Source: Olivibacter sp. XZL3 (GTDB lineage: Bacteria; Bacteroidota; Bacteroidia; Sphingobacteriales; Sphingobacteriaceae). Taken from it: a stretch of 64,000 nucleotides of DNA. Position 1 is the first letter of the stretch; every line of letters starts with the position of its first letter. Below are positions 3,357 to 22,686 of this stretch, piece by piece. The stretch spans positions 62,001 to 126,000 of the forward strand of contig NZ_SBJH01000062.1 of NCBI RefSeq assembly GCF_004368405.1, given 5' to 3'. Both the position numbers and the translations under genes were made by a program. The notes beneath the pieces were generated by a model. That model made no database searches, was not told the DNA's origin, and saw only the letters and a program-made list of their open reading frames with translations.

Positions 3357-3378
3357 GCGCTCGTTAAAACCACTTTGT

Positions 3379-3407: not shown

Positions 3408-3573
3408 ATTTGCATAGAAATTTTAAACCTATTACTTTTGAGGAAATCATGCTATAAGAAGCATGCGAACTAACCAAATTTCGGTAGAGCCTTTAAAGCA
3501 ACGATTCCTTAACGTAAGCTAAACGGTTAAAGACTTCGTTTTGAGCAGTGGCTTTCCGCTTAAACATATAACT

Positions 3574-4446
3574 ATGAAACCTCGTTTAAAAAAAGTTCCT
3601 ATCAAATCGGAGAGCTCCTTTAGCATCAACCATGATATTATGCCCAATTTTGGTAATGTTTGGCATTACCATCCTGAATTGGAACTGCACTATAATATCA
3701 AGGGGGAAGGTGTACGATTCATAGGCGACCATATTGACAATTTTTCATCCGGAGAAATCATTTTATTGGGGGAGAACTTGCCGCATGCCTGGCGCTGTCG
3801 CGAAGAGTATTTTCAGCAAGACCCGGACTTGAACATCGAAGCTATTGTTATGCAATTTTTGCCCGATTGTTTAGGAAAAGATTGGATTAATATTCCGGAG
3901 GCTTATTTGATTCCTAGATTATATGAAAAAGCCAAAAGCGGAATGATTTTTTATGGCGAAACCCAAAAAAAGGTCGCACAACTCATGTATGAATGCACGT
4001 ATGCCGAAAACCTCGAACGCATAATTTTGTTGTTGGCGATTCTAAAAACCCTAGCAGAAAGCGATGAATACAGATTGATAACCAATAAATACCATGCCTT
4101 TACCTCTCCCAATGAAGCAGACACAATTCGCTTAAATAAAGTGTATACCTATACCTTCAGTAATTATAAATCGGAAATCACATTAAAAGAGATAGCAGCC
4201 ATCAGCAATCTCAGCGTTACCTCCTTTTGCCGCTACTTTAAGATGATGACCAGAAAAAGTTATTATGATTTTTTAATTGAGATCCGCGTTAGCCATGCCT
4301 GCCGTTTATTGATTGAAAACATCTTACCGACTGAAGTAATTTGCTTTGAATGTGGATTCAATAATGTTTCCAATTTTTATCGGCATTTTAAGAAACAAAA
4401 AGGGGTAACTCCATTAGAATATAAGCGTGTTCATCTTTCGCGATAA
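3574..4446 (+). CDS. AraC family transcriptional regulator (cupin + HTH)
   Basis: The N-terminal part is a cupin-type sensor with the WHYHPELELHYNIKGEG signature and the downstream GEIILLGENLPHAW strand. The C-terminal roughly 100 residues form two helix-turn-helix motifs (LKEIAAISNLSVTSFCRYFK and then CFECGFNNVSNFYRHFKKQKGVTPLEY), the typical AraC/XylS DNA-binding domain. The ATG at 3574 is preferred because MKPRLKKVPI fits relatives; an upstream TTG at 3541 is in frame. It is divergent from the alcohol dehydrogenase/lyase/PdxA2/kinase operon, so it is probably its activator, sensing a pathway metabolite in the cytoplasm. Confidence 0.85.
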   Translation: MKPRLKKVPIKSESSFSINHDIMPNFGNVWHYHPELELHYNIKGEGVRFIGDHIDNFSSGEIILLGENLPHAWRCREEYFQQDPDLNIEAIVMQFLPDCLGKDWINIPEAYLIPRLYEKAKSGMIFYGETQKKVAQLMYECTYAENLERIILLLAILKTLAESDEYRLITNKYHAFTSPNEADTIRLNKVYTYTFSNYKSEITLKEIAAISNLSVTSFCRYFKMMTRKSYYDFLIEIRVSHACRLLIENILPTEVICFECGFNNVSNFYRHFKKQKGVTPLEYKRVHLSR

Positions 4447-5633: not shown

Positions 5634-6896
5634 TTAAGCAAAGCGCTCGGGCGAGAACAAGGATACATCTGCTGAAGTTTGCTGTTCCTTTGCCAATTCG
5701 CTCACTACCTTGCCATAAGCCGGCCCCAAGCTAAGCCCCATCATGCCACCACCACCCGCAACAATCAGGTTTTTCAGTTGTTTGCTATACCCCAGGTAGG
5801 GCAAGCCGTCAGGCGAGCAAGGCCGAAAACCGAACCACACGTCTTTCTTGGCAGGCATATCCACGTTCAGCTCAGGATAGTAATGCGGAATGGCGTCCAC
5901 TATACCTTGCACCCGATTCATGTTGACTTTATTGTTTAAGGCCGCCAGCTCCATGGTTCCACCAAAACGAATATACCCATTCATGGGGGTTACCGCAACC
6001 CTTGCCTCCACTAATAACGAGGGGTGCTCCAATCGGTGCTCGGATGGCTTGTACATAAAAGAATAGCCTTTCCCGGGCATAAGCGGAATACGAAGTCCCG
6101 CCTTTTTCGCAATATCGGGCAACCAGGCTCCGCCGGTCATCACGAATTTATCGGCACTAAACTTTTTACTACCTGCAATAACGGCCTCTAATTTACCTTG
6201 CTTGGCCTCAAATCCGGTTACCGCCGTATGCTCGTGAATGATTGCCCCTTTTTGTTTTATATAAGCAATCAGTTGCGCCATCAATGCCTGCGGATAGAGA
6301 TGACCATCACAACGGTAATGCACTGCGCCCAGCACATCTAGCTTGGCATGAGGCTCTAATTGCTGTACTTGGTTTCTGGACAAGGCTTCTACGTCCAGCC
6401 CCAACGATTTTGCCGTTTCAGCCAAATGAACCTCTTCTTCTGCCATCTTCTCGGTTTTGTATAGCATAAGAATTCCTTTATGTTGTAATTCGAATGCAAA
6501 ATCGTCCGCCTTGGCGATCTCATCATACAGATTGCTACTCAACAGATTCAGATCACGGATACTCGGCGCCGACCGCTCGACATGCGTGGCATTGGCGTGT
6601 TTAATAAATTTGAGGCCCCAAGAGATCAGATTGGCACTTAAGCTTGGCTTTACATAAAACGGACTCTTACTATTGAACATCCATTTTATGCCCTGTGCCA
6701 CAATACCTGGTGCTGCGAGCGGTGTAAAGTGACTTGGCACCAACATCCCCGCATTTCCATAAGAACAATTGTCTTTCAAGTCGCCACTGTCTAAGAGCGT
6801 TACTTTCCAGCCGTCTTTTAGTAAGTAATAGGCCGAACATAGTCCTGCAATACCGCCGCCTATAATCAGTACACTCCCTTTATTTTCTTGATTCAT
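5634..6896 (-). CDS. FAD-dependent D-amino-acid dehydrogenase, probable cis-4-hydroxy-D-proline dehydrogenase
   Basis: This 420 aa flavoprotein of the DAO family has an N-terminal Rossmann motif (VLIIGGGIAGLCSAYYLL) and a C-terminal FAD-contact region (RPCSPDGLPYLG, then VAGGGGMMGLSLGPAYGKV). The family includes DadA D-amino-acid dehydrogenases and the hydroxyproline-pathway enzyme that oxidises cis-4-hydroxy-D-proline to pyrroline-4-hydroxy-2-carboxylate, passing electrons to the respiratory chain. Function is inferred from context: it is the last gene of a minus-strand run with hydroxyproline epimerase, semialdehyde dehydrogenase and a DapA-family deaminase. The 140-nt gap to the epimerase gene is a low-complexity repeat. 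A general D-amino-acid dehydrogenase remains possible. Confidence 0.82.
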   Translation of the reverse strand: MNQENKGSVLIIGGGIAGLCSAYYLLKDGWKVTLLDSGDLKDNCSYGNAGMLVPSHFTPLAAPGIVAQGIKWMFNSKSPFYVKPSLSANLISWGLKFIKHANATHVERSAPSIRDLNLLSSNLYDEIAKADDFAFELQHKGILMLYKTEKMAEEEVHLAETAKSLGLDVEALSRNQVQQLEPHAKLDVLGAVHYRCDGHLYPQALMAQLIAYIKQKGAIIHEHTAVTGFEAKQGKLEAVIAGSKKFSADKFVMTGGAWLPDIAKKAGLRIPLMPGKGYSFMYKPSEHRLEHPSLLVEARVAVTPMNGYIRFGGTMELAALNNKVNMNRVQGIVDAIPHYYPELNVDMPAKKDVWFGFRPCSPDGLPYLGYSKQLKNLIVAGGGGMMGLSLGPAYGKVVSELAKEQQTSADVSLFSPERFA

Positions 6897-6904
6897 GTGT
6901 TATT

Positions 6905-7036
6905 GTCGTTTTTTCAGTTGCCGGTTGCCGGTGCCCAGTTGCCGGCCGCTTTCGACTTTTGAATTTTTACTTTTGAATTTTACAATCCCTACGGGAGACA
7001 GACTTTTTGACTTTTGAATTTTTACTTTTTACTTTT
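6905..7036. repeat. 7-nt-periodic low-complexity spacer
   Basis: The gap between dehydrogenase and epimerase genes is built from degenerate 7-nt units. Read on the minus strand these are AAAAAGT, AAAAATT, CAAAAGT and AAAAGTC, plus repeated CGGCAAC units close to the dehydrogenase ATG. The phrase CTTTTGAATTTTTACTTTT occurs twice. No ORF or hairpin terminator is evident. Confidence 0.6.
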
Positions 7037-8035
7037 TTATATCACCTGAAAACCGAAGGCATAAGGATCTTCATCGTCAATGATAATATGATTATATCCT
7101 GTAATTAACGCCCACCCTTCCACTCCGGGTATGATGGCAGGTTTTCCGTTTACCGTTGTTTCTTCCTCAATCGTTCCGAGAAACTTGGATCCTATATAGC
7201 TTTCATGTATAAATTGATCGCCCTTCTTTAATTTTCCTTTGGCATACCACTGAGCCATCCGCGCAGATGTACCGGTGCCGCAGGGCGATCTATCCAACGC
7301 ATTCTCTCCTACAAGCACCGCATTTCTGCCGCTTGATGCGGCGTCTAAAACGCTCCCCGTCCACTGTATATGGCTTAAGCCGAAAATATTACTGTTTTCG
7401 GGATGCACAAATTCATAGCGATCGTTTAATAATTTTCGAATTATTTTGCCATAGTGAATCAGTTGACCAGCAGAAAACTCCTTGATATCCTTAAAGTTCT
7501 CCTGTGGATCAATAATGCCATAGAAATTCCCTCCAAAGGATACGTCCACGCGGATAAGCCCTAAGTCGGGGCATTCCACTTCTAAGTCCTCGGCATACAA
7601 AAAGGATTTTACATTGGTGAATTTAACGGATTTCACTCTCTTACCTTCTTGTTTATAGTCAATCAACACCAAGCCTGCCGGTGTCTCTAAGCGCAATACT
7701 CCGGGTGTTTTCGGCTCGATCAAGCCTTCCTCAATCGCAATGGTAACCGTACCGATTGTGCCGTGCCCGCACATAGGCAAACAGCCACTCGTTTCAATAT
7801 AGAGTACACCGATATCGTTCGACGGATCGCAGGGCGGGTAAAGAATACTTCCGCTCATCATATCATGGCCCCGAGGCTCAAACATGAGTCCCTTCCGAAT
7901 CCAATCGTATTCTCGCATAAAATGTAGACGCCTCTCCATCATGGAGTTGCCGTCAAGCAAAGGCCCACCTCCGGCCACCAGCCGTACCGGACAACCACAG
8001 GTATGGGCGTCTATACAAAAAAAGGTTTTTCTCAT
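7037..8035 (-). CDS. 4-hydroxyproline epimerase (proline racemase family)
   Basis: The 332 aa protein belongs to the cofactor-independent proline racemase family. Both catalytic cysteines are visible: the first in MCGHGTIG and the second in SPCGTGTSA. Two Cys residues mean an epimerase or racemase; 3-hydroxyproline dehydratases have Thr at the second site. It converts trans-4-hydroxy-L-proline to cis-4-hydroxy-D-proline, the entry step of the pathway. It lies between the flavin dehydrogenase and the semialdehyde dehydrogenase, which fixes the substrate as hydroxyproline rather than proline with good confidence. The N-terminus starts directly with the family sequence FFCIDAHTCG. Confidence 0.92.
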   Translation of the reverse strand: MRKTFFCIDAHTCGCPVRLVAGGGPLLDGNSMMERRLHFMREYDWIRKGLMFEPRGHDMMSGSILYPPCDPSNDIGVLYIETSGCLPMCGHGTIGTVTIAIEEGLIEPKTPGVLRLETPAGLVLIDYKQEGKRVKSVKFTNVKSFLYAEDLEVECPDLGLIRVDVSFGGNFYGIIDPQENFKDIKEFSAGQLIHYGKIIRKLLNDRYEFVHPENSNIFGLSHIQWTGSVLDAASSGRNAVLVGENALDRSPCGTGTSARMAQWYAKGKLKKGDQFIHESYIGSKFLGTIEEETTVNGKPAIIPGVEGWALITGYNHIIIDDEDPYAFGFQVI

Positions 8036-8040
8036 ATAAC

Positions 8041-8162
8041 AGCTTTGAGTCCTCAGCTAGCTAATAGCTTTCAGCTCCTATAAATCTTTTTTATTTAATT
8101 CTCCTCGACTGATTGCGGCAGCCTAAAGCTTACTGCTTATAGCTTACCGCCTACAGCCTCCT
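8041..8162. repeat. Heptad repeat array overlapping the 3' end of the dehydrogenase gene
   Basis: GCY triplets recur at 8121, 8128, 8135, 8142, 8149 and 8156, an exact 7-nt step (units such as GCTTACT, GCTTATA, GCTTACC, GCCTACA). A looser array of AGC units covers 8041-8080, with AGC at 8059, 8066 and 8073. The array crosses the stop codon (8137-8139) and encodes the C-terminal AVGGKL of the semialdehyde dehydrogenase. Confidence 0.65.
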
Positions 8163-9630
8163 TCGTTAGCTGATTATTTACTGTACGATAAATCCCTAAC
8201 GGATTTGCATTTTTTAAAGCGTCCGGAAGTAAATTGTCGGGCCAGTTCTGGAAAGATAAAGGACGCAAAAACCGCTGAACGGCATCCGGTCCTACTGAAG
8301 TAAACCGACTATCTGTTGTCGACGGGAAAGGTCCACCATGTTGCATCGCTAAACTAACTTCTACACCGGTCGGCATGCCGTTATACAAGAGACGTCCACA
8401 CTTATCCTGTAACACATTGATTAGGTCTGCATATTCCACGGCATCTGCCTCCGTAGCCGCTACCGTAATCGTTAACTGACCTTTTAATTGCTCAGCCACC
8501 GCAAGCATTTCCTCTTTATCGGTACAGGTAACTATTAGACCGAAAGGGCCGAAAACCTCTTCCAATAGCTGTTCGTTCGCTAACAAAGCTTTGGCATTCG
8601 TTTCAGCAAGTAATGCCGCACCTTGCCCTTCCGCCGCTGACTGCGCGGCTTTTCCTAATACCGCAACAGCCGATTGCGTCAGCATTTTTTCGCTGTTGCT
8701 TTGATAGGCTTTCGCAATTCCCTCATGAAGCATGGGAGCGGGTTGACAAGCTGATACAGCTTCGCTTAAAGCCGACTTAAAAGCTTCTAAATCTTTACCG
8801 TTCAATGCCACGACAACGCCTGGATTGGTACAAAATTGGCCCACGCCCAGTGTAAGCGAAGCTAAATATTGCCCGGCAAATTCCTGCGGGTTCACTGCAA
8901 GTTTCGCTGGAAGTACAAAAACAGGATTTACACTTCCCATCTCGGCAAATACCGGTATAGGCTCTAACCTGCTATTGGCCAAATCGAACAAGGCTTTACC
9001 TCCTTTGAAGGATCCGGTAAAAGCTACCGACTTAGTCAAGGGATGTTGCACGAGGTAAGCCCCAGCCTCATTGGAATTACCATACACATGTGAAAATACG
9101 CCTTCGGGCCAACCGGCTTCCTGTATAGCGCTTGTAATTGCCTCCGCCATCAACGTAGAGGTTTTTAAATGCCCGGGATGGGCTTTTAAGATTACGGGGC
9201 AGCCTGCGGCGATGGCACTAGCGGTATCGCCTCCTCCGGTTGAAAATGCAAAAGGGAAATTACTTGCTCCAAAAACAACCACAGGACCTACGCCAACTTT
9301 GATCTTTCTCAGATCTGGTTTAGCGGGCGTTCTATCCGCAATCGCTGTATCAATCCGCGCTTCAAAACAGGCTCCCTCTTTGATGTGATCGGCGTAGCTC
9401 CGCCACTGAAAAATCGTACGGGCCTTTTCTCCCACTAGACGGGCCTCAGGAAGACGGCTCTCTTCCATGGCTGCTGCAATAAGCTCATCGCCCAGTCCTT
9501 CAATCTTGTCGGCAATGGCATACATTAACGCCGCCCTATCAGCGGTACTCCGCTGTTTTAAATATTGAAACGCTGCTGCTGCTTTATACAATAATTCCTC
9601 TACTTGTTCCTGTGATGTTTCTGTATACAT
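8137..9630 (-). CDS. Alpha-ketoglutarate semialdehyde dehydrogenase (ALDH family)
   Basis: This aldehyde dehydrogenase has the catalytic Glu in FAEMGSVNP and the catalytic Cys in GQFCTNPG, with the cofactor loop around FTGSFKGGKAL. The sequence resembles the hydroxyproline-pathway type of 2,5-dioxopentanoate dehydrogenase, which oxidises alpha-ketoglutarate semialdehyde to alpha-ketoglutarate with NAD(P)+. The ATG at 9630 is chosen because GAGGAA lies 7 nt upstream and the family start MYTETSQEQV follows; a longer reading frame to 9672 adds 14 unlike residues. It is followed upstream in the operon by the DapA-family deaminase that makes its substrate. Its last codons are made of a 7-nt intergenic repeat, so the natural C-terminus may have been altered. 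Confidence 0.88.
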   Translation of the reverse strand: MYTETSQEQVEELLYKAAAAFQYLKQRSTADRAALMYAIADKIEGLGDELIAAAMEESRLPEARLVGEKARTIFQWRSYADHIKEGACFEARIDTAIADRTPAKPDLRKIKVGVGPVVVFGASNFPFAFSTGGGDTASAIAAGCPVILKAHPGHLKTSTLMAEAITSAIQEAGWPEGVFSHVYGNSNEAGAYLVQHPLTKSVAFTGSFKGGKALFDLANSRLEPIPVFAEMGSVNPVFVLPAKLAVNPQEFAGQYLASLTLGVGQFCTNPGVVVALNGKDLEAFKSALSEAVSACQPAPMLHEGIAKAYQSNSEKMLTQSAVAVLGKAAQSAAEGQGAALLAETNAKALLANEQLLEEVFGPFGLIVTCTDKEEMLAVAEQLKGQLTITVAATEADAVEYADLINVLQDKCGRLLYNGMPTGVEVSLAMQHGGPFPSTTDSRFTSVGPDAVQRFLRPLSFQNWPDNLLPDALKNANPLGIYRTVNNQLTKEAVGGKL

Positions 9631-9701
9631 ATAATTCCTCTTAACAAAATAAAACCCTCGTGATCGCCACAATCACAATAGGCATGAAAGTGCTTGCTCA
9701 A

Positions 9702-10616
9702 TTACGCATTTACTTCCAAATTCGGTCTGTTAACTTTACTGTCGGCAATGATCTTCAAAACACGTTCGCGTTCTTCACCTACCAAAGGCAAACGAGGCGC
9801 TCTGACGGTCTCATTACTAATGCCTTCGCTAACGGCCGCTAACTTAATATACTGTACTAGTTTTGCATGAATATCTAATTCCAAAAGCGGCAAGAACCAG
9901 CGGAATATTTCCAAAGCCTTTTGGATCTCTCCTGCCTTTACATACTCGTAAATTGCCACCGTTTCCTTAGGGTAAGCGTCAACCAATCCGGCAACAATAC
10001 CATCCGCACCCATCAATAAAGCTTCTGTTGTAATGGTATCAACCCCACCAAGAATTTTAAAGCGGTCGCCAAAACGATTAATCATCCGTGTAATGTTCGT
10101 CAGATCGCGCGTAGACTCTTTAACCGCTTGAATATTCGGTACGTCAGCAAGTTGTTCGAACATATCAAGGGTAACCAAGTTGCCATAGTCGACTGGATTG
10201 TTGTATACCATCATAGGAAGGCTCGTGCTGTTGGCAATCGTTGTAAAATAAACAACGGTTTCTCTGTCGTCCGCCTTATAACGCATAGGAGGCAACACCA
10301 TAAGTCCGTCCGCGCCTAACTCTTCTGCTTTCTTGGCAATCTTTATCGCCTCCGAGGTAGCCTGCTCGGCAATACCCAAAATAACAGGAACAGCTTTATC
10401 TGCAACAAAGTTAACGGTATATGTCAATAAATCGTATTTCTCTTGTGTTGATAAAGTACTCGCTTCACCAAGTGATCCCGCTAAAATCAAACCATGTACA
10501 CCGCCTTCAAGTTGCGCCGTCAGGTTTTTGCCAAACATATCAAAATCGATTTCCCCGTTCTCCTTAAATGGAGTTAATAATGCAGGATAAATTCCTTTCC
10601 AAAGTTCTTTAGTCAT
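9702..10616 (-). CDS. Pyrroline-4-hydroxy-2-carboxylate deaminase (DapA family)
   Basis: The 304 aa protein of the dihydrodipicolinate synthase superfamily has the catalytic Tyr in MVYNNPVDYG and the Schiff-base Lys in AVKESTRD. The usual GTTGE loop is replaced by AGSLGEAS, a variation typical of non-DapA members. In hydroxyproline degradation this enzyme deaminates and dehydrates pyrroline-4-hydroxy-2-carboxylate to alpha-ketoglutarate semialdehyde and ammonia. It is the first gene of the minus-strand operon with dehydrogenase, epimerase and flavin oxidase, which together make the full pathway from trans-4-hydroxy-L-proline to alpha-ketoglutarate. The assignment rests mainly on that context. 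Confidence 0.85.
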   Translation of the reverse strand: MTKELWKGIYPALLTPFKENGEIDFDMFGKNLTAQLEGGVHGLILAGSLGEASTLSTQEKYDLLTYTVNFVADKAVPVILGIAEQATSEAIKIAKKAEELGADGLMVLPPMRYKADDRETVVYFTTIANSTSLPMMVYNNPVDYGNLVTLDMFEQLADVPNIQAVKESTRDLTNITRMINRFGDRFKILGGVDTITTEALLMGADGIVAGLVDAYPKETVAIYEYVKAGEIQKALEIFRWFLPLLELDIHAKLVQYIKLAAVSEGISNETVRAPRLPLVGEERERVLKIIADSKVNRPNLEVNA

Positions 10617-10633
10617 TATAATTCTTTTTTCTT

Positions 10634-10641
10634 CAAAAGTA
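10634..10641 (-). promoter_or_regulatory. Candidate -7 box of the hydroxyproline operon
   Basis: On the minus strand this reads TACTTTTG, an exact TAnnTTTG match, 18 nt before the deaminase ATG. No good -33 TTTG is present, consistent with activator dependence. Confidence 0.4.
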
Positions 10642-10687
10642 AGTCGAACAGTTAAAGATATCCTTCCATGTATTAATCAATCATACG

Positions 10688-10698
10688 CGTATTTTAAC
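10688..10698 (-). promoter_or_regulatory. Copy of the GTTAAAATACG motif upstream of the hydroxyproline operon
   Basis: On the minus strand this reads GTTAAAATACG, identical to 11 bp of the two motif copies upstream of the AraC gene at 11852-11915. It lies about 47 nt upstream of the TACTTTTG box, a sensible place for an activator site. Confidence 0.5.
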
Positions 10699-10845
10699 TT
10701 TTTTATTAACGCCTTTTGTCTTGACTTCTTCACTCACTCTTTTCCTGTTCATACAAATTTTTCTTATCGCTCCTCTCATGAGGTCGATTTCTGCACAAAA
10801 GCCTTCACCTGTATAGATAGACAAAGAAAAGCATAAGTATAAGGC

Positions 10846-10867
10846 TGCCAAGCTCTTTGGCTTGGCA
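10846..10867 (-). terminator. Hairpin after the AraC gene
   Basis: TGCCAAGC (10846-10853) pairs perfectly with GCTTGGCA (10860-10867) around a 6-nt loop. It lies 34 nt past the AraC stop codon in its direction. The following minus-strand sequence is only moderately T rich. Confidence 0.5.
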
Positions 10868-10900
10868 TCGCTTCAGACAGCTAAAGCAGTTAATATATCG

Positions 10901-11779
10901 CTACTGAATGTTTCTTTGGAAATTCGTCATAAATTCTTTGGGAGAATTACCAATTACACTTTTAAATACCCTATTGAAATTAGTGATACTATTAAATCCA
11001 CAATTATACGCTACGCCGGATATACTTTCACATTTATGGTGTGTTAATTTTTTACAGGCTTCATGCACACGCATTTCGTTTAGAAAAGCAACAAAGGTAT
11101 TACCCGTATGCTTCTTAAAATAGCGACAAAAAGCTTGGGGCGTTAAATTAGCCTGATCGGCAACTTCCTCCAAGGTAATTGGTTTGGTGAAATTTTGGGC
11201 TATATAATTGTAAATCGAACCGATACGGATTCCTTCATTTTCCGAAATAGACGAGTTTTTACCGCCGGCAAGCGAAGTTGCTTGCTTAGATACCTGGCAT
11301 AAGGTGCGCAATAAATAAAAGAAATGCATGAGCTGGTCCATTTGACTGGCATCTTTCAACCTTAAAACACGTCGGGACACTTCTTTAAAATACGAAGTTG
11401 GCACCTTAAAGCCTCTTTCGTGATCCTTAACAAAACTCTGAAGCATATAAAGTTCGGGCAAATTAAACAGGGAGGCTAAATTGCCATTTGGATCAAAAAA
11501 CACCGAAATCGATCTCACCTGCTTCGGATTGTGGTCATCAAAATAATCGGCATTGCTTTTGAAAACATGGGACTGATTAGCTCCCAAAAGAAAAATGTCA
11601 TTCTCCTGAAAAGGATGCATACTATTGTCTGCAATTAAGGTTCCTTTTCCTTCCAATACCCACATGAGCTGCGCCTCGTGATGACGATGTAGATGCGGGT
11701 AGAAATGCGGCATGCAATCCTCCTGAACAATGACTGTTCGGTTGTGCGCTACCGGAATGGTGAACTGTAGTGTCTTCAT
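10901..11779 (-). CDS. AraC family regulator of hydroxyproline use
   Basis: The 292 aa regulator has an N-terminal cupin sensor (PHLHRHHEAQLMWVLEGKGTLI) and a C-terminal AraC/XylS DNA-binding domain (ITLEEVADQANLTPQAFCRYFKKHTG and then YNCGFNSITNFNRVFKSVIGNSPKEF). It lies immediately upstream of the hydroxyproline operon on the same strand and divergent from the Xaa-Pro aminopeptidase. A 12-bp motif occurs twice in its own upstream region and an 11-bp version before the hydroxyproline operon, so it probably autoregulates and controls both sides. The inducer is likely hydroxyproline or a downstream metabolite (inference). It ends at a perfect 8-bp hairpin. Confidence 0.88.
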   Translation of the reverse strand: MKTLQFTIPVAHNRTVIVQEDCMPHFYPHLHRHHEAQLMWVLEGKGTLIADNSMHPFQENDIFLLGANQSHVFKSNADYFDDHNPKQVRSISVFFDPNGNLASLFNLPELYMLQSFVKDHERGFKVPTSYFKEVSRRVLRLKDASQMDQLMHFFYLLRTLCQVSKQATSLAGGKNSSISENEGIRIGSIYNYIAQNFTKPITLEEVADQANLTPQAFCRYFKKHTGNTFVAFLNEMRVHEACKKLTHHKCESISGVAYNCGFNSITNFNRVFKSVIGNSPKEFMTNFQRNIQ

Positions 11780-11851
11780 CGCTGGTTTGGTGTATTAGGT
11801 AATGTGAATTTGCTAATATTAACTCATAAATACAAGACTTTAGGTAAAATA

Positions 11852-11915
11852 GGTTAAAATACGGTCATTATTCGTTAAATGATTGCCAATAACGCCTGCA
11901 TTTGGTTAAAATACG
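11852..11915. promoter_or_regulatory. Twin operator candidate (2 x GGTTAAAATACG)
   Basis: GGTTAAAATACG occurs at 11852-11863 and 11904-11915, 52 bp apart (five helical turns), with a partial copy (AGGTAAAATA) just left of the first. The region divides the AraC gene from the Xaa-Pro aminopeptidase gene, so it may serve both promoters. The same 11-mer core precedes the hydroxyproline operon. Confidence 0.55.
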
Positions 11916-12059
11916 AATAGCATCTGAGAAAAAAGGGGGAGCATCGCTTGGAATTATTTATGATTTTTACATTCCCCCTTAAACTTCATATTAGCGGGAT
12001 TATTTTTTATTTAACTCAAAAGATACCACCTTTGCTAAACAGCAGCAATGAATTAAGAC

Positions 12060-13451
12060 ATGTTTGAAAAATCGATTTATATTGAGCGGAGAAAAAGGCT
12101 AAAAAATGAATTTTCAAGTGGTTTGCTTCTATTCCTTGGGAATGATGAGCAGCCGATGAACTACACGGATAATACCTTTCCATTTAGACAAGACAGCTCG
12201 TTTCTATATTACTTTGGCATTCAGGAGCCGAAACTTGCGGCCATCATTGATTTGGACGAAGACAAGGAAATACTATTCGGAGATGAGCTCACTATTGATG
12301 AAATCGTTTGGACAGGCCAACAGGAAACATTAATGGAAAAGAGTGGAAAAAGCGGGATCTCGACGCTTCTTCCGAGCGCTAGCCTGTACGACTATTTACA
12401 GCGGACGCAAGAACAGAAACGGCTTGTTCATTATCTTCCACCCTATCAACCGAACAATAAAATTAAGCTCTTTAATTTGTTAGGTATACACCCGATCGAA
12501 CAGGAAAAAAAAGCTTCGATCCCTTTTATCAAAGCGGTCGTAGCGCAACGTTCGATTAAAAGTGCAGAGGAAATTAGCCAGATCGACATGGCGGTGAATA
12601 CTTCGGTAGAGATGCACCTACATGCCATGAAAATGGCAAAAGAAGGACTAACGGAACTACAGATTGCGAACGCTATACAGGAGATCGCCCAAAATGGAGG
12701 AGGAAAACTTGCCTATCCGACTATTCTATCCATCCACGGTGAAATCCTTCATAATCATAAGCATTCTAATACCTTAAGAAAGGGGCAGCTCGTACTGAAT
12801 GATTCGGGGGCCGAAACGGCAATGGGTTATGCAGGGGATCTAACGCGCACTTTCCCGGTAGACGGGCAGTTTAGCAATAAACAAAAAGAAATCTATACCG
12901 TAGTATTACAAGCTTTTGAGCAAGCCTCGGCTATGCTGGCTCCCGGCGTGCGTTATCTAGATGTGCACCTTAAAGCGTGCACCGTGCTGTTTGACGGTTT
13001 GAAAGAACTAGGCCTTGTAAAAGGCGATACGGCCGAAGCGGTCGCAAAAGGAGCGCATACCCTGTTCTTTCAATGTGGAACCGGGCATATGATGGGATTA
13101 GACGTACATGATATGGAGGATCTGGGCGAACAGTATGTGGGCTATACCGAAAGCCTAAAGAAAGACACCACCACCTTTGGACTGAAGTCTTTACGGTTGG
13201 GAAAAGAATTGGAAGCAGGCTACGTGCTGACGGTTGAACCCGGCATTTATTTTATTCCCGAATTATTTGCTCGTTGGAAAGCAGAAAACAAGTTGGCCGA
13301 CTTTATTAACTATTCCGCGGTAGCGAATTACATGGGTTTCGGCGGCGTTCGGATTGAAGACAATTACTTGGTGACGCACGCGGGGAACCGCCGCTTAGGC
13401 AACTACCTGGCCAAAACCGTTGAAGAGGTGGAAGCGCTAAGAAATAGCTAA
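12060..13451 (+). CDS. Xaa-Pro aminopeptidase (M24B)
   Basis: This 463 aa protein has an N-terminal creatinase-like domain (about residues 1-165) and a C-terminal pita-bread catalytic domain. The metal ligands are visible: Asp in VLNDSGAE and GYAGDLTRTFP, His in GTGHMMGLDVHD, Glu in TVEPGIYF and Glu in VRIEDNYLV. It removes the N-terminal residue from peptides with proline (often hydroxyproline) in second position and acts in the cytoplasm, as no signal peptide is present. It is divergent from the hydroxyproline regulator and heads a run of peptidase genes. The shared operator motif suggests co-control with hydroxyproline degradation. Confidence 0.93.
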   Translation: MFEKSIYIERRKRLKNEFSSGLLLFLGNDEQPMNYTDNTFPFRQDSSFLYYFGIQEPKLAAIIDLDEDKEILFGDELTIDEIVWTGQQETLMEKSGKSGISTLLPSASLYDYLQRTQEQKRLVHYLPPYQPNNKIKLFNLLGIHPIEQEKKASIPFIKAVVAQRSIKSAEEISQIDMAVNTSVEMHLHAMKMAKEGLTELQIANAIQEIAQNGGGKLAYPTILSIHGEILHNHKHSNTLRKGQLVLNDSGAETAMGYAGDLTRTFPVDGQFSNKQKEIYTVVLQAFEQASAMLAPGVRYLDVHLKACTVLFDGLKELGLVKGDTAEAVAKGAHTLFFQCGTGHMMGLDVHDMEDLGEQYVGYTESLKKDTTTFGLKSLRLGKELEAGYVLTVEPGIYFIPELFARWKAENKLADFINYSAVANYMGFGGVRIEDNYLVTHAGNRRLGNYLAKTVEEVEALRNS

Positions 13452-13494
13452 AGAGGCTACCTGACTATTTAAAAAATCAATTGCTATATAACAC

Positions 13495-15681
13495 ATGAGA
13501 CACATAAACCGACTACTTTGGATTTGCTTCCTAATAAGCAGCGCATTTCCTATTAATTTTCTCTTTGCACAGCCGGGCGTTAAGACACAATGGACGCAAG
13601 ATGGCAACGGCTACTATAAAGCCGAAGAGGGCAAAATACTAGAAGTGAACCTCCTAGACCCAAATCACCCTACCGTTTTTCTGGATGAGGCTACACTTAC
13701 ACCGGCCGACAGCAGTACACCTTTGAGCATCAGACAATTTATTATTTCTCCGGATCGCAAAAAGGTACTATTATTCACCAATACGAAACGTGTCTGGCGT
13801 TATCATACGCGCGGCGATTATTGGATATACGACTTCAACAAAAAACAGTTGAGCCAATTAGGGAAAGGACTGCCTGCCTCCTCCTTAATGTTTGCTAAAT
13901 TATCGCCGGATGGCACGAGCGTAGCCTATGTAAGCAAGCACAATCTATACATGGAGGATCTGACATCACACCAGATTACGCAGCTGACAGCGGATGGAAA
14001 TGACCGAATGATCAATGGGACCTTCGATTGGGCTTATGAGGAAGAGTTTGGCTGTAGGGACGGTTTCCGCTGGTCGAGCGATAGTAAACACATCGCTTAT
14101 TGGAAGATTGATGCCCGTAGCATACGCAATTACCTGATGTTGAACACCACCGATTCGACCTACTCCTTCACCATTCCGGTAGAATATCCGAAGGCAGGCC
14201 AAAATCCAAGCGCTTGCTATATCTATGTGGTCGATACAAAGACGAAGGAAAATAAAAAAATGGATATCCCCGGCGACCCCATACAACACTATATTCCCCG
14301 TATGGAATGGACGCCCAATGGCCAATCGCTTATTATTCAACAACTGGACCGCCGACAACAGGAAAGCCATATTATGCTGTGCGAAATTAAAACAGGCACC
14401 ACAAAAAATATCTACTCGGAAACGGATAATGCGTGGATTGATATTAAATCGCGTTGGAATGATGACGACCCTAGCGGTTGGGAGTGGATCGATAATGGAA
14501 AGGCCTTTCTATGGGTAAGCGAAAAAGACGGTTGGCGACATGTCTACAAAGTCGATATAAACGGCAAGGAAACCTTAATTACAAAAGGAAACTATGATAT
14601 TATCGGTATAGATTTAATCGATGAGGATAATCAAAAGCTCTACTTCAGCGCCTCCCCCGACAATGCTACACAAAAATACCTGTATCAGGTTAGTTTAAAA
14701 GGAGGCAAAGCGTCCAGCGTATCTCCATTGAGCCAAGCAGGTACGCACAGTTACCGCATTTCACCTAACGGAAAGTTGGCAGAACATACATTCAGCAGCA
14801 GCACGGCCTATTTCGCGGGTGAAGTAGTGGTTTTGCCCGGGCATGAACAGAAATTGGCGGCGGCCATCCAACGTGATCTCCCAGCAGGAACTCCAAAACC
14901 TGAATTCTTTAAAATCACTACAGCAGATGGCGTAGAGATGGATGGGTGGATGGTTAAACCTACCGCATTTGATAGCACCAAAAGATACCCTATTGTTTTT
15001 CAGGTATACGGTGAACCCGCTGGCCAAACAGTTACAGACACCTACGGTACAGGGTTTAATCGTTTATACGAAGGCAGTATGGCGGCTGACGGTTATCTCT
15101 ATGTTTCGGTTGAAAACCGCGGAGCGCCGGCTCCTAAGGGCAGAGTCTGGCGGAAAGCGATTTACCGCAACATTGGCACCATTAACATTCGAGATCAAGC
15201 CATGGCAGCCAAAGAAATCTTAAAATGGAACTTTGTCGACTCCTCACGCGTTGCTGTATGGGGGTGGAGCGGAGGTGGCTCTTCTACGCTGAACTTACTG
15301 TTCCAATACCCTGAAATTTATAAAACCGGTATCGCCGTTGCAGCTGTAGGCAACCAGCTCATGTACGACAACATCTACCAAGAACGCTATATGGGTGTTC
15401 CTCCCGAAAGTCAGGCCGACTACGTAAAAGGCTCGCCCATTACACACGCGAAGAACTTACAGGGCAACCTGCTATACATCCATGGTACGGCAGATGATAA
15501 TGTGCATTACCAGAACGCGGAAATGCTAATTAATGAGCTGATTAAATACAATAAGCAGTTTCAGCTGATGTCGTACCCAAACCGGAGCCATTCCATATCG
15601 GAGGGCGAGGGCACCTCGGCTCACCTAGCGCGCTTGTACACGAACTATTTAAAGCAATATTGTCCACCGGGAGGAAGGTAG
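13495..15681 (+). CDS. Dipeptidyl peptidase IV-like serine peptidase (S9B)
   Basis: The 728 aa protein has a signal peptide (cleavage near NFLFAQ), an N-terminal beta-propeller and a C-terminal alpha/beta hydrolase domain. The catalytic Ser is about residue 592 in GWSGGGS, where most relatives have GWSYGG. The Asp is in GTADDNVH and the His in NRSHSISE. The Glu pair that holds the peptide N-terminus in DPP IV is visible in FDWAYEEEFG. It should release Xaa-Pro or Xaa-Ala dipeptides in the periplasm or at the surface. It follows the Xaa-Pro aminopeptidase by 43 nt, giving a proline-directed pair. Confidence 0.9.
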   Translation: MRHINRLLWICFLISSAFPINFLFAQPGVKTQWTQDGNGYYKAEEGKILEVNLLDPNHPTVFLDEATLTPADSSTPLSIRQFIISPDRKKVLLFTNTKRVWRYHTRGDYWIYDFNKKQLSQLGKGLPASSLMFAKLSPDGTSVAYVSKHNLYMEDLTSHQITQLTADGNDRMINGTFDWAYEEEFGCRDGFRWSSDSKHIAYWKIDARSIRNYLMLNTTDSTYSFTIPVEYPKAGQNPSACYIYVVDTKTKENKKMDIPGDPIQHYIPRMEWTPNGQSLIIQQLDRRQQESHIMLCEIKTGTTKNIYSETDNAWIDIKSRWNDDDPSGWEWIDNGKAFLWVSEKDGWRHVYKVDINGKETLITKGNYDIIGIDLIDEDNQKLYFSASPDNATQKYLYQVSLKGGKASSVSPLSQAGTHSYRISPNGKLAEHTFSSSTAYFAGEVVVLPGHEQKLAAAIQRDLPAGTPKPEFFKITTADGVEMDGWMVKPTAFDSTKRYPIVFQVYGEPAGQTVTDTYGTGFNRLYEGSMAADGYLYVSVENRGAPAPKGRVWRKAIYRNIGTINIRDQAMAAKEILKWNFVDSSRVAVWGWSGGGSSTLNLLFQYPEIYKTGIAVAAVGNQLMYDNIYQERYMGVPPESQADYVKGSPITHAKNLQGNLLYIHGTADDNVHYQNAEMLINELIKYNKQFQLMSYPNRSHSISEGEGTSAHLARLYTNYLKQYCPPGGR

Positions 15682-15745
15682 AGTTGTAAGTTTTAGGTTA
15701 TGGGTTTTTAAGTTTTAATAGTAAAATTAGATTGTAAGCTAGAAG
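15676..15745. repeat. Heptad-periodic spacer after the S9 peptidase
   Basis: GT-starting units recur at 15683, 15690, 15697, 15704 and 15712 (steps 7, 7, 7, 8; GTTGTAA, GTTTTAG, GTTATGG). The array begins at the stop codon of the S9 gene. Nothing else is evident in this 111-nt gap. Confidence 0.5.
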
Positions 15746-15792
15746 ACGGACAAAAAATACGTATTGCTAATGGCTTATTAATATTCATCAAC

Positions 15793-17460
15793 ATGCATAA
15801 ATTAAATTATAAAAAAATACTCTTTGCCCTATCGACGGCGGCCATGCCCTTGATCGGATCTGCCCAATTGCAGGTAAAACAAGAAACATTCAACAGGGCC
15901 GATACGCTTAGAGGTACATTAACGCCGTTGCGTACTTGTTATGACATTAAATACTATCATCTCGATGTGAAGGTAGACATCGATCAGCAATTTATCAGTG
16001 GCAGTAACCTTTTTAAATTTGAGGCGATCGAAGATTTCCGCAAGCTGCAATTTGACCTTTTTGCCAATCTGAAAGTCGAAAAAGTAATCTATCACGGCCG
16101 AGAAGTACCCTTTACGCGCGAATTCAATGCCGTGTTTGTCGAATTTCCAACCGCTATTAAAAGTGGATCCATAGATTCAATGCAGGTATTTTACTCGGGA
16201 CATCCTCAAGTTGCTAAGCGCGCACCATGGGACGGCGGTTTTGTTTTCGCTAAAGACAGCAAAGGCAAGCCTTGGGTGGCCACCGCCTGTCAGGGACTCG
16301 GCGCCAGCGTTTGGTGGCCAAACAAAGATCACCAGGCAGACGAGGTTGATAGCATGCTCATTAGTATAAGCGTACCCAAAGGGCTATCTGACGTATCTAA
16401 TGGTCGACTTATTAAAAAAACCGACCGAAAAGACGGCTACACGCAATTCGACTGGTTTGTACGTAATCCCATCAACAACTACAGCGTATCTGTTAATATA
16501 GGCGACTATGTTAATTTCACAGATACCTACAAAGGAGAAAAAGGTGCGCTCGATCTCAGCTATTGGGTGCTCAGAGAAAATGAGGCCAAAGCTAAAAAAT
16601 TCTTCCCTATCAATGTAATTCCGATGCTGAAAGCCTTTGAGCACTGGTTCGGGCCGTATCCCTTTTATGAAGACAGCTATAAGTTGGTGGATGTACCTTA
16701 CACCGGCATGGAGCATCAGAGTGCGGTGACCTACGGAAACGGCTATGCGAATGGCTATCGCGGCCGTGACGCCTCGGATACCGGATGGGGCATGAAATGG
16801 GATTTTATTATTGTACACGAAAGCGGACACGAATGGTTTGGCAACAACATTACCTCTAAAGACCTTGCAGACATGTGGATACACGAAAGTTTTACCAACT
16901 ACTCGGAAGCACTGTTTGTCGACTATAATTATGGGAAAGAGGCAGGGCAAGCCTATGTACATGGCATTCGAAGCGGTATACAGAACGACAGTCCCGTACA
17001 AGGACCTTATGGCGTAAACCAGGAAGGATCCGGTGATATGTATCCAAAAGGCGGAGTTTTGCTAAACATGGTTCGTACCATCATTAACAACGATGAGAAA
17101 TGGCGACAAATATTAAGAGGACTGAACAAAACTTTCTATCATCAAACGGTTAATTATGAAGACGTAGTCGACTATATAAGTCAACACGCCGGGCGCAATC
17201 TCAATCCGGTATTTGCTCAGTATATCAAGCACAGCAATATCCCAACCTTGGAATTCCGGTTTAAAGATGGTAAAACCTACGCCCGTTGGATTGCCGATGT
17301 GGCCGATTTTAATATGCCGGTAAAAGTGCGGACGAAAGGCAACAGCTATCAATTTATCGAACCAGGCAGAAGCTGGAAAGAATTTGACCTGACGGGAGCG
17401 AGCCGAGACAACATTGAAGTAGATACTTACAATTATTATATAGGCGTCTTAATAGAATAA
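15793..17460 (+). CDS. M1 family metallopeptidase, short form
   Basis: This 555 aa protein carries a signal peptide (about residues 1-24, ending IGSAQ). An N-terminal beta domain is followed by a gluzincin catalytic domain: HESGHEWFGNN holds the HEXXH zinc motif and WIHESFTNYSEAL supplies the third ligand Glu. The canonical GAMEN exopeptidase loop is changed to GMEHQ. Family members such as PepN reach about 870 aa; this one lacks the C-terminal ARM-like domain. It is probably a periplasmic aminopeptidase. The next gene begins only 6 nt after its stop codon, so the two are co-transcribed. Confidence 0.88.
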   Translation: MHKLNYKKILFALSTAAMPLIGSAQLQVKQETFNRADTLRGTLTPLRTCYDIKYYHLDVKVDIDQQFISGSNLFKFEAIEDFRKLQFDLFANLKVEKVIYHGREVPFTREFNAVFVEFPTAIKSGSIDSMQVFYSGHPQVAKRAPWDGGFVFAKDSKGKPWVATACQGLGASVWWPNKDHQADEVDSMLISISVPKGLSDVSNGRLIKKTDRKDGYTQFDWFVRNPINNYSVSVNIGDYVNFTDTYKGEKGALDLSYWVLRENEAKAKKFFPINVIPMLKAFEHWFGPYPFYEDSYKLVDVPYTGMEHQSAVTYGNGYANGYRGRDASDTGWGMKWDFIIVHESGHEWFGNNITSKDLADMWIHESFTNYSEALFVDYNYGKEAGQAYVHGIRSGIQNDSPVQGPYGVNQEGSGDMYPKGGVLLNMVRTIINNDEKWRQILRGLNKTFYHQTVNYEDVVDYISQHAGRNLNPVFAQYIKHSNIPTLEFRFKDGKTYARWIADVADFNMPVKVRTKGNSYQFIEPGRSWKEFDLTGASRDNIEVDTYNYYIGVLIE

Positions 17461-17466
17461 AAACCG

Positions 17467-19215
17467 ATGAAATATACGATCTTCAAAAAATATTTTCCCT
17501 ATTTGTTAACTGCTTGCGTCGCTTGTTCGTCCGGGCAGTCCAAACGGCCCTCCAACGAAGAAGACAAAGCTTTCTCAGCCTATACTGATCACTTTGTGAC
17601 GGCTCTTTGGAAACAGTACCCTTCTTGGGCGACCCGAGCAGGTTACCATGCTTATGACACGGTGCTCACGTTGCCGACTCCTGAAAACGCAGTGAAGAAC
17701 AAAAGTTTTCTACAAGCGCAGCTCGATTCCTTGTCCGCCTACCCCTTGGACCGCCTGTCTGCCAGTCAGCAAATTGATTATCATCTCATTGAAAACCGAT
17801 TAAAATCCATGATTTGGTCGGAAGACACCTTAAAATCTTTCGAATGGGACCCCTCTTCTTATAACGAGGCGGGCACCTTCGCTCAAATCCTGACAGGCCG
17901 TTATGCGCCCCTAAAGGAACGCCTACGGGCCTTCGGAAAAAGATTGCAGGGAATTCCGGCTTATTATGAAGCAGCCAAAAAGCAAATCAAAGATCCCGTG
18001 CCAGAACTTCAAGCACTCGCGATTAAACAACTCAAGGGAGGAATTCCGATTCTCAGCACTAATTTTGCCGATAGCATCGAAAAGGCGGACCTGTCCGCGG
18101 AAGAGCGGAAAGCCATGCTGATGGCTTCTGAAAACGCTGTGAAGGCAATTAATAACTTTACCGACTGGCTTAGCGGCCTCCGCTCCACGCATCCCAAAAG
18201 CTTTAGGCTGGGACGGGATCTTTATGAGCAAAAATTTGCCTATCAGGTCCAGGCCAACCAATCGGCGGAAGGCCTGTATCACAGTGCCATCCAACGGAAA
18301 AACTATGTCCATGGTGAAATGATGAAGTTGAGTAAGGAGCTATGGCCAAAGTATTTTGGAAACATACCTATGCCCACCGACACCTTGGTACTCATTAAGA
18401 AGGTGGTCGACACGCTATCGGTCAATCATGCAAGCGCAGCGGGCTTCTTAGATACGGTCCGCAATCAGATTCCGCGACTGATCGACTTTATCAACCAAAA
18501 GGATCTCCTTTATATCGATCCCAGCAAACCATTGACGGTTCGGGAAACACCGGCTTATATGGGCGGTGTTGCCGTTGCCTCAGTGAGCGCGCCAGGGCCT
18601 TATGACAAAGGGGGGATGACTTATTTCAACGTCATTCCGTTAGCTGGCTGGTCGGCAGCAAAAACAGAAAGTTTCTTAAGGGAATACAATCATTACATCC
18701 TTCAAACGCTCTGTATCCATGAAGCGATCCCTGGTCATTACACGCAGCTTGTCTATGCGAACCAATCGCCCAGCCTAATCAAATCATTATTTGGAAACGG
18801 CGCTATGATTGAAGGATGGGCCGTTTATACCGAGCAGATGATGCTTGAGAACGGCTATGGCGGCAATACGCCCGAAATGTGGTTAATGTGGTATAAATGG
18901 CATTTACGAGCGGTAGCAAATGCCATACTCGATTACGAAGTACATGTGAACGGTATGAGCCGGGCACAGGCTCTTGATTTCCTCATCAATGGCGCCTTTC
19001 AGGAGCAGGCAGAAGCCGAAGGTAAATGGGATCGGGTTACCCTGAGCAGCGTACAACTGACTAATTATTTCTCCGGTTACCACGAAATCTATCAGTTGCG
19101 GGAAGATCTGAAAAAGAAAGACAAGGATGCATTTAACCTGAAGAAATTCCATGAACAATTTCTAAGCTACGGGAATGCCCCGGTTAAATATATTCGGGAG
19201 CTGATGCTCAACTAG
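17467..19215 (+). CDS. DUF885 family lipoprotein, putative metallopeptidase
   Basis: The 582 aa protein has a lipoprotein signal with lipobox LTAC (Cys near 17). The DUF885 domain fills the rest and shows the conserved metal-type motif HEAIPGHYTQ and the downstream EGWAVYTEQMM, which resemble the zinc site of gluzincin peptidases. DUF885 proteins are linked to peptide hydrolysis but are incompletely characterised. It directly follows the M1 peptidase (6 nt), completing a four-peptidase run. It is clearly more distant from the two other DUF885 proteins in the window (19352 and 58647) than they are from each other. Confidence 0.85.
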   Translation: MKYTIFKKYFPYLLTACVACSSGQSKRPSNEEDKAFSAYTDHFVTALWKQYPSWATRAGYHAYDTVLTLPTPENAVKNKSFLQAQLDSLSAYPLDRLSASQQIDYHLIENRLKSMIWSEDTLKSFEWDPSSYNEAGTFAQILTGRYAPLKERLRAFGKRLQGIPAYYEAAKKQIKDPVPELQALAIKQLKGGIPILSTNFADSIEKADLSAEERKAMLMASENAVKAINNFTDWLSGLRSTHPKSFRLGRDLYEQKFAYQVQANQSAEGLYHSAIQRKNYVHGEMMKLSKELWPKYFGNIPMPTDTLVLIKKVVDTLSVNHASAAGFLDTVRNQIPRLIDFINQKDLLYIDPSKPLTVRETPAYMGGVAVASVSAPGPYDKGGMTYFNVIPLAGWSAAKTESFLREYNHYILQTLCIHEAIPGHYTQLVYANQSPSLIKSLFGNGAMIEGWAVYTEQMMLENGYGGNTPEMWLMWYKWHLRAVANAILDYEVHVNGMSRAQALDFLINGAFQEQAEAEGKWDRVTLSSVQLTNYFSGYHEIYQLREDLKKKDKDAFNLKKFHEQFLSYGNAPVKYIRELMLN

Positions 19216-21109: not shown

Positions 21110-21129
21110 CGCTAATCAATAAAAAGATG

Positions 21130-21275
21130 TTTTATAAAAATCTCAACTTCATTTCGTTACGTTACCGAGGCTGCCGTAGACACGCCTGCCAGCGGTTGCT
21201 GGGGAGAAATCGGTACGGATTAAAACATACGGATGTCTCGACTCCCTTCGGCAGACCAAGTGCACGGCGCTCGAC
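21130..21275. repeat. Dispersed intergenic repeat (GAGAAATC...GATGTCTCGAC type)
   Basis: The 172-nt gap between SusD and the DUF885 gene contains GGGGAGAAATCGG and, 30 nt on, GATGTCTCGACTCCCTTCGG and GCTCGACATGA. These phrases resemble the abundant Bacteroidota intergenic repeat with GAGAAATCT and GTCATTTCGAC cores, also seen at 40431-40496. No gene is present. Confidence 0.4.
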
Positions 21276-21281
21276 ATGAAT

Positions 21282-22676: not shown

Positions 22677-22686
22677 TGTTCAAAAA

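Follow-up and report, generated by a model that had tools for sequence, protein, structure and literature searches.

The window analysed here, a stretch of 64,000 nucleotides from Olivibacter sp. XZL3 (contig NZ_SBJH01000062.1, positions 62,001 to 126,000 of the forward strand), harbours an operon for the catabolism of hydroxyproline (Hyp), a gene for an AraC-family regulator, several peptidase genes and three SusC/SusD (SusCD) gene pairs. These genes probably constitute a regulon for peptides that contain hydroxyproline, under the control of the AraC protein encoded at 10901-11779, whereby in this soil bacterium one regulator appears to switch on a 55-kb set of genes that imports and degrades Hyp-rich peptides and then burns the Hyp. 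An earlier note on this DNA had proposed a unit of 13.6 kb at 5634-19215; its genes are real, but the unit continues to approximately 60.6 kb and spans around 55 kb (5634 to 60615). The genome is close to Olivibacter (Sphingobacteriaceae), with the AraC protein 93% identical to its O. jilunii counterpart, and the 4-hydroxyproline 2-epimerase HypE is present in five same-genus genomes (G000 to G004, with G000 the window's own) at 83-100% identity.

The Hyp operon on the minus strand comprises a DHDPS-family deaminase-like protein (9702-10616; PF00701, with K166), an aldehyde dehydrogenase, likely the alpha-ketoglutarate semialdehyde (KGSA) dehydrogenase, as gene 2 (8137-9672; PF00171, motif GQFCTNPG, nearest solved structures 3v4c and 1eyy), HypE as gene 3 (7037-8035; NF010578 with 569.8 bits at a cut-off of 376, catalytic pair C89 and C252) and a DAO-family cis-4-hydroxy-D-proline oxidase/dehydrogenase, which is D-amino-acid dehydrogenase-like, as gene 4 (5634-6896; PF01266, 1.6e-65). 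Catalytic residues, as well as the N-termini with respect to export or a signal peptide, were judged by eye from printed sequences. All four enzymes of the Hyp pathway that the earlier note had postulated are found at 5634-10616 by Pfam profiles, with HypE above its NCBIfam cut-off. For the other three, no NCBIfam model is above its cut-off among the matches listed (25 of 41); they belong to the superfamilies expected of the Hyp route, within the same operon, and their exact activities are predicted.

The regulator gene (10901-11779, minus strand) encodes a cupin N-terminal domain and a helix-turn-helix domain (HTH_18, 1.4e-19; PF12833, PF00165). Divergent from it on the plus strand are a Xaa-Pro aminopeptidase (aminopeptidase P) of the M24 family with an AMP_N domain, in which a signal peptide is not seen (12060-13451), a DPP IV-like S9 peptidase with GWSGGG (13495-15681) and an M1 aminopeptidase-like protein with HESGH (15793-17460), both apparently exported, and a DUF885 peptidase-like lipoprotein with 3u24 as nearest solved structure (17467-19215), so that profile matches bear out the regulator and the divergent peptidases as previously described. 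For comparison, AraC loci were collected from the best 80 of 454 relatives, picked by AraC similarity. The DAO-family gene is present in 58 of these 80 loci. The fourth peptidase gene (17467-19215), in contrast, has a counterpart at 45% identity in none of them, and the idea that its role is conserved was rejected.

The 11-mer GTTAAAATACG occurs exactly three times in the 64 kb, once before the Hyp operon (10688-10698, minus strand) and, as the earlier note had observed, twice in the gap between the AraC and peptidase genes (11853-11863 and 11905-11915, plus strand), with an expected count of 0.07 and none of 100 shuffles reaching three. As a specific element, the 11-mer is nevertheless rejected, as the 5.36-Mb genome holds nine copies, six of them elsewhere, with three for the reversed control. 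Aligned upstream regions from the same genus display a direct repeat, GTTAAWATAYG-N10-RTTAAW, with its halves 21 bp apart, of which GTTAAAATACG is merely the first half; the shared operator motif is in this sense real, but in a longer form than had been recognized. With no mismatch, this two-box operator has 3, 2, 2, 0 and 3 matches in G000, G001, G002, G003 (where the contig carrying the locus is only 8.7 kb) and G004, and all ten are in the locus. With one mismatch allowed there is no excess in the five genomes (37 matches versus 36 for the reversed control), and a pattern of site plus promoter box was therefore adopted.

TAnnTTTG is the Bacteroidota -7 consensus. Downstream of 96 sites oriented towards a locus gene (loci L011-L088 and L108-L115, and the window), it is located at offset 25 in 46 cases, six of which belong to the window or to the same-genus locus L115, at 24 in four, at 26 in two and elsewhere within 128 nt in nine, where 0.10 is expected by chance at one fixed offset. 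Eight promoters in the window, all rechecked, carry a site and a box exactly 25 nt on; the sites were found by matrix (Hyp operon, SusC-1, SusC-2, DUF5695 and a DUF885-permease-S9 operon), by pattern (GH43 and a possible RNA) or by eye (SusC-3). When up to two mismatches are allowed, site plus box gives 12 matches in G000, seven of them in the window, including all six with at most one mismatch, and the reversed control gives 1-3 per genome; with at most one mismatch, 21 of 24 matches in G000, G001, G002 and G004 are in the locus. The operator and promoter geometry is thus shared between these promoters, and the spacing of 25 nt between second half and -7 box is what one would expect of an activator in contact with RNA polymerase.

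These promoters extend the unit well beyond the genes listed initially. Besides the Hyp operon (operator at 10667-10698, -7 box TACTTTTG at 10634-10641, conserved in G001, G002 and G004), and likewise on the minus strand, the SusCD-1 operator (25773-25804, box TAGTTTTG at 25740-25747) precedes SusC-1 (22687-25686), SusD-1 (21282-22676; PF12771) and, as third gene of the operon, a DUF885 protein (19352-21109) that has the same place in G001, G002 and G004. Among solved structures, SusC-1 is nearest to BT2264 (5fq6; 1.4e-116), followed by 8aa4 (1.1e-70). A GH43 gene with F5/8C and LamG-like domains (29398-32853) has its operator, with one mismatch to the site-plus-box pattern, at 32910-32941 (box TAATTTTG at 32877-32884). 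The SusCD-2 operator (45421-45452, box TAACTTTG at 45388-45395) is followed by SusC-2 (42140-45265) and SusD-2 (40616-42085), and a POT/PTR2 oligopeptide transporter is encoded at 38844-40334 (PF00854, 2.1e-49). The SusCD-3 operator, seen by eye only (51522-51553, box TACATTTG at 51489-51496), precedes SusC-3 (48157-51360) and SusD-3 (46673-48136), behind which a 303-amino-acid protein with a HEFSH zincin-like motif and without Pfam family is encoded (45551-46462). The DUF5695 protein, a candidate glycan-active enzyme starting with the ATG at 54764 (52008-54764; PF18951, 1314.5 bits), has an operator at 54827-54858 (box TACATTTG at 54794-54801), and the operator at 60584-60615 (box TATATTTG at 60551-60558) stands ahead of a third DUF885 protein (58647-60497), an APC amino acid permease (57203-58717) and a second DPPIV/S9 peptidase (54892-57138). 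Features of SusCD-type loci, namely adjacent SusC and SusD, degradative enzymes and a regulator, are all found. The SusCD-DUF885 (19352-25686) and DUF885-permease-S9 (54892-60497) genes, both outside the earlier note, would be the best-supported regulated peptide genes.

Two sites occupy the gap between regulator and peptidase operon. The one at 11853-11884 (plus strand) is a two-box match without a -7 box at 25 nt and is inverted relative to AraC. Similar inverted sites lie 61-226 bp upstream of AraC in 27 entries from 25 other loci, 23 of the 27 at 81-92 bp; they occur also where a divergent peptidase is missing and so suggest that the role of the 11853 site is probably autoregulation of AraC. 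The operator-like site at 11905-11936 (plus strand), ahead of the peptidase operon, is conserved in four same-genus loci; its second half GAGAAAAAAGG is weak though conserved, and it has a degenerate box GATTTTTA and no TAnnTTTG at 25 nt.

As the two-box pattern was derived from the same-genus sites themselves, the independent test is a weight matrix, built from 13 Olivibacter sites including those of the window, on the 78 loci around AraC homologues in other genera (L011-L088), to the exclusion of the two Olivibacter loci, L009 and L010. In 67 of the 78 loci, its top match is at most 250 bp ahead of a locus gene, although such upstream stretches make up 3.9% of the sequence, compared with 4 to 21 loci for eight column-shuffled matrices, and the comparison of motif positions across relatives that had been suggested earlier thereby shows sites recurring upstream of locus genes. 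Among matches of at least 15 bits, 69/74 are upstream of locus genes, and a half-site spacing of 21 yields 112 matches versus 5 to 30 for ten other spacings. At a threshold of 11 bits and within 200 bp upstream of the gene, a site precedes the head of the Hyp operon in 38/55, SusC in 16/18 and AraC in 40/78 cases, but unrelated open reading frames (ORFs) in only 7/430; 57 of the 78 loci hold a site, and in 38 it stands ahead of at least two gene classes, with shared gaps counted twice. Alternatively, the repeat might bind another regulator or represent a general promoter element, with AraC as a bystander. The same kind of site indeed precedes distant SusC/SusD-like pairs, as do two of the three off-locus site-plus-box matches (judged by N-termini and lengths), and in G000 a copy of this distant pair is preceded by a match with two mismatches. 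We regard such a bystander role as improbable, since the loci were found via AraC, unrelated ORFs in the same loci rarely have a site and no genome searched has a zero-mismatch site outside the araC locus. Direct repeats of 21 bp beside the promoter are, furthermore, typical of AraC-family operators, and the window combines a helix-turn-helix regulator with a direct-repeat operator of about 21 bp next to the promoter, as in AraC/XylS-type systems.

The second line of evidence is recurrent linkage. A locus is termed complete when 8 kb are present on either side of AraC (61/80) and a Hyp locus when it holds at least two of the four Hyp genes, which leaves 47 complete Hyp loci, with L009 of the window's genus among them. 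A peptidase is found in 37 of these 47 (M24 in 20, S9 in 13, M1 in 7, DUF885 in 22), and the conserved linkage across relatives that the earlier note had put forward as a check is thus observed, even if binomial figures for it are overstated by the kinship of the loci. Same-strand runs join both arms in L109, a Sphingobacterium locus (Hyp genes, DUF885, permease, S9), and in L075 (M1, DPP IV and Hyp genes behind a single site with a box at 25). As the DUF885-permease-S9 set directly follows the Hyp genes in L109, in the same order as in the window, its tie to Hyp is independent of the motif. That generic peptidases would reside beside Hyp genes by mere coincidence of genome layout, with no common function, is very improbable. 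These peptidase families are common, with 4-10 DPPIV_N matches per genome (seven genomes, fragments counted), but the background is approximately 0.02 for S9 and 0.007 for DUF885 per 20 kb, and different families occupy the same place in different clades, with M24/S9/M1 in Olivibacter, another M24 type in Pedobacter and DUF885 in Mucilaginibacter. In Pedobacter (L023 7801-9576; L020, L026, L027, L028, L071), this different, 591-amino-acid type of Xaa-Pro aminopeptidase adjoins the same AraC/Hyp unit, a non-orthologous replacement.

A possible small RNA of about 200 nt (51672-51877, minus strand, ends approximate) is located between DUF5695 and SusC-3, with an operator at 51916-51947 that has one mismatch to the site-plus-box pattern, a box TATTTTTG at 51883-51890 and a strong terminator; terminators alone were taken from the sigma-70 promoter scan, which does not cover Bacteroidota promoters. 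No listed ORF of at least 60 amino acids is on that strand, and the fold z-score is -2.8. In G000, G001 and G002, the 3' end recurs almost unchanged, with one copy in each genome; it was not found in G003 and G004, while Rfam gives nothing at gathering scores within the window. Interspersed genes of other kinds (tricorn-like protease, kinase, DUF6055) are not counted as members. The tricorn-like protease (PD40 propeller, PDZ, S41; 26100-29348, plus strand) is divergent from SusC-1, and a histidine kinase, a redoxin-domain protein and a LytTR response regulator are consecutive at 33210-36550 (plus strand) within the regulon region. GH97 and aldose 1-epimerase genes (60762-63892, minus strand) lie upstream of the DUF885-permease-S9 operon, with no site among the matches listed. 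A second AraC cluster at 34-4446, composed of a PdxA-like gene, a second DHDPS-family gene, a gene for a 385-amino-acid protein and its own AraC regulator (3541-4446), was set aside as a member, as its genes are different and no site is among the matches listed.

With respect to the substrate, plant hydroxyproline-rich glycoproteins (extensins, arabinogalactan proteins) seem the most likely source of Hyp, over collagen, because beta-L-arabinofuranosidases of family GH127 (PF07944) are repeatedly encoded next to the operon in relatives; of all steps of the interpretation, this is the least certain. The complete Hyp loci contain GH127 in 17, an alpha-galactosidase in 7 and DUF5695 in 5 of 47 cases, with a GH127 background of approximately 0.02 per 20 kb in six genomes. 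GH127 is also found inside the G001 cluster and adjoining the Hyp operon of G004, and it is divergent from SusC, with the operator in between, in eight Mucilaginibacter loci and G001. The G004 cluster has two GH43 genes and a GH51-type arabinofuranosidase gene adjoining the DUF885 gene, and in the window the GH43 gene, known from a family-level match, carries an operator, as does DUF5695. In extensin and lectins, Hyp is stripped of its arabinose chains by GH127, GH121 and GH43 enzymes, and a prolyl oligopeptidase gene adjoins those enzymes in Xanthomonas, according to the available parts of PMC6085000; the parts covered of PMC7263609 and PMC10850190 assign the same enzyme roles, and extensin use via GH127 has been predicted in another phylum (PMC4454575, in part). 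As GH127/GH146 act on other plant glycans too (PMC10850190, in the same parts), the presence of GH127 is no proof of the substrate.

The full-length model of DUF5695 (six sequences, pLDDT 54.6) has the polysaccharide lyase 5no8 as top Foldseek match (3.5e-13), with a TM score of 0.20-0.25 and a Z score of 10.8 at a root-mean-square deviation (rmsd) of 19.2 for this low-confidence model; the reference for a PL27-like lyase is BACCELL_00875, a PL27 enzyme with activity on arabinogalactan protein. When residues 410-918 were modelled separately (pLDDT 53.2), there was no structural match under 0.001, and neither sequence nor profile searches against solved structures gave anything for DUF5695, so its possible resemblance to polysaccharide lyases is a hint only.

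On the other hand, the regulon could serve peptides of collagen or gelatin that derive from animal remains, with the glycosidases as chance neighbours or acting on the sugars of collagen, a substrate that the earlier note had considered and that we now judge unlikely. For collagen use, a cluster in Colwellia unites genes of Hyp catabolism with those for proline peptidases and for a TonB receptor, so that the pairing can mean collagen, and alpha-galactosidases (PF16499) are listed among bone-degrading enzymes in the same source (PMC7883544, in part). BT2264, to which SusC-1 is nearest, is bound to a peptide ligand (PMC7782687, in part), and glycosidases are missing beside the Hyp genes of Parapedobacter and of several Pedobacter loci. 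The Colwellia cluster is, however, centred on an M9 collagenase, whereas M9 is above the cut-off in none of eight genomes, the window's own included, in a search that did not extend to other collagenolytic families; one sub-threshold match is in G012. The recurrence of GH127, alpha-galactosidase and DUF5695 beside Hyp genes, the operators of GH43 and DUF5695 in the window and the glycosidases of the G004 cluster equally argue against collagen. The published Colwellia cluster raised the weight given to collagen and lowered that given to a complete plant-glycoprotein system.

Several observations weigh against a single regulon for Hyp-rich plant material. Binding of the operator by the AraC protein 10901-11779 is suggested by proximity and co-occurrence, and the 80 loci include many close kin, so that the counts are not independent. 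The peptidase operon 12060-19215 has no canonical site, and both gap sites are the least canonical of all; the earlier proposal of peptidases and catabolic genes under one regulator accordingly agrees with the shared sites and recurrent linkage, but the very peptidase operon it listed is the least canonical target. Outside the genus, own sites are rare for peptidases (M24 type 2 0/14, DPP IV 0/10, aminopeptidase P 1/9, M1 1/12, S9 1/10, DUF885 2/25), the APC permease (0/30) and glycan-active candidates (GH127 3/31, alpha-galactosidase 0/7, DUF5695 0/4), and control of the peptidase and glycosidase genes there consequently rests on gene order. No peptidase is found by the thresholds used in 10/47 complete Hyp loci, and 6/47, four of them from Parapedobacter, also lack GH127, alpha-galactosidase and DUF5695. 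The Hyp operon is not nearby in 14/61 complete AraC loci; for nine AraC loci without full Hyp operon, in seven genomes, HypE is located elsewhere in 7/7. A supported clade of nine AraC rows has no Hyp genes nearby (three of the nine loci complete), and Sphingobacterium has its peptidase arm (L088) in a different place from its Hyp arm (L109), with an AraC gene at each. GH127 is not encoded in the window, with five elsewhere in its genome. SusC-2 and SusC-3 are nearest to 8aa4 among solved structures, with RagA second and third, and SusD-1 is nearest to 5j5u, with BT2263 17th. Cumulatively, a Hyp-peptide utilization unit, as it had been envisaged, is upheld by linkage, shared sites and the AraC gene, but its collagen substrate is less supported.

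Two of these exceptions deserve description. The Hyp-less AraC clade consists of L018, L024, L029, L030, L037, L043, L058, L061 and L066, six of these loci being cut short; GH127 adjoins four (L043, L058, L061, L066), and the regulator is possibly a paralogue with another task. In Sphingobacterium faecium, one of two AraC paralogues is by peptidase and SusCD genes (L088) and the other by the Hyp operon (L109).

In the proposed Hyp-peptide regulon, the AraC protein, probably induced by Hyp or a pathway intermediate, would act at the operators of the Hyp operon, the three SusCD operons, GH43, DUF5695, the DUF885-permease-S9 operon and the possible small RNA, with a non-canonical layout at the site between araC and the peptidase operon. 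Surface enzymes may trim Hyp-rich (glyco)peptides, upon which SusCD-1, whose SusC is most like peptide-bound BT2264, would move oligopeptides into the periplasm, the direction of transport being presumed. There, DPP IV-like, M1 and DUF885 peptidases would shorten the oligopeptides, POT and APC carriers could take in di- and tripeptides and Hyp, the M24 enzyme would cut X-Pro/X-Hyp, and HypE, the DAO-family enzyme, the deaminase and the aldehyde dehydrogenase are predicted to convert Hyp to 2-oxoglutarate. A more far-reaching version, in which one AraC activator governs the complete use of plant Hyp-rich glycoproteins, from removal of Hyp-linked arabinose by GH127/GH43, SusCD import of glycopeptides and digestion of proline peptides to Hyp catabolism and a small RNA, with DUF5695 perhaps an undescribed glycan enzyme, is tentative, and we would put it at somewhat below even chances.

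As decay-resistant components of the plant wall, extensins and arabinogalactan proteins are of wider interest, and little was found in the literature on the use of their protein part by soil and root bacteria. If true, the complete system would be a 'glycoprotein utilisation locus', where the peptide, beyond sugar alone, serves as food. With a predicted regulator, an exact operator-to-promoter spacing and a list of genes, the question can be tested directly; candidate functions arise for DUF885 and DUF5695, several SusCD pairs are suggested to be (glyco)peptide importers, and the operator is usable as a marker for finding further members.

Among known systems, LhpR of Pseudomonas is an AraC-type regulator dedicated to Hyp use. 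The Streptomyces HypR regulon (PMC6608401, in part) likewise has a dedicated regulator of Hyp use, which belongs, however, to another family, GntR. Of the SusCD/RagAB peptide importers (BT2263-64, RagAB), BT2264 is the nearest to SusC-1, while SusD-1 is not nearest to BT2263 and the available parts of PMC7782687 hold no tie to Hyp catabolism. Operons around 4HypE resemble the window in uniting HypE, DAAO, DHDPS and aldehyde dehydrogenase; the covered parts of PMC4113996 name transporters, regulators and enzymes, with peptidase mentioned once and AraC, collagen and proline-rich not at all. The HypAA-HypBA2-HypBA1 systems of Bifidobacterium longum and Xanthomonas, with GH43 and GH127 acting on Hyp-arabinose chains and a prolyl oligopeptidase by xehypAA, are comparable on the glycan side, but the B. 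longum system takes the sugar, the Xanthomonas enzymes are dispensable for disease and Hyp catabolism does not occur in the parts covered (PMC6085000, PMC7263609). A close likeness is the Colwellia cluster (PMC7883544), where epimerase, D-Hyp dehydrogenase, deaminase and KGSA dehydrogenase are accompanied by proline peptidases (a YpdF-type aminopeptidase and a Hyp dipeptidase), a TonB-dependent receptor and a regulator. In the window, too, a TonB receptor and proline peptidases are linked to the Hyp genes, in contrast to M9. The Colwellia cluster differs in belonging to Gammaproteobacteria, in its size of around 21 kb, in its M9 collagenase and in its PutR regulator, and the passages available contain no SusCD, operator analysis, GH127 or DPP IV/M1/DUF885. 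A Hyp-peptidase-SusCD regulon in Bacteroidota is not described among the literature matches listed, a weak negative as it covers titles and abstract openings, with subscription papers thinly represented. The linkage of Hyp catabolism with peptidases, which the earlier note did not know to be described in Bacteroidota, is as such already known from Colwellia; the regulon in Bacteroidota appears to be a new form of it.

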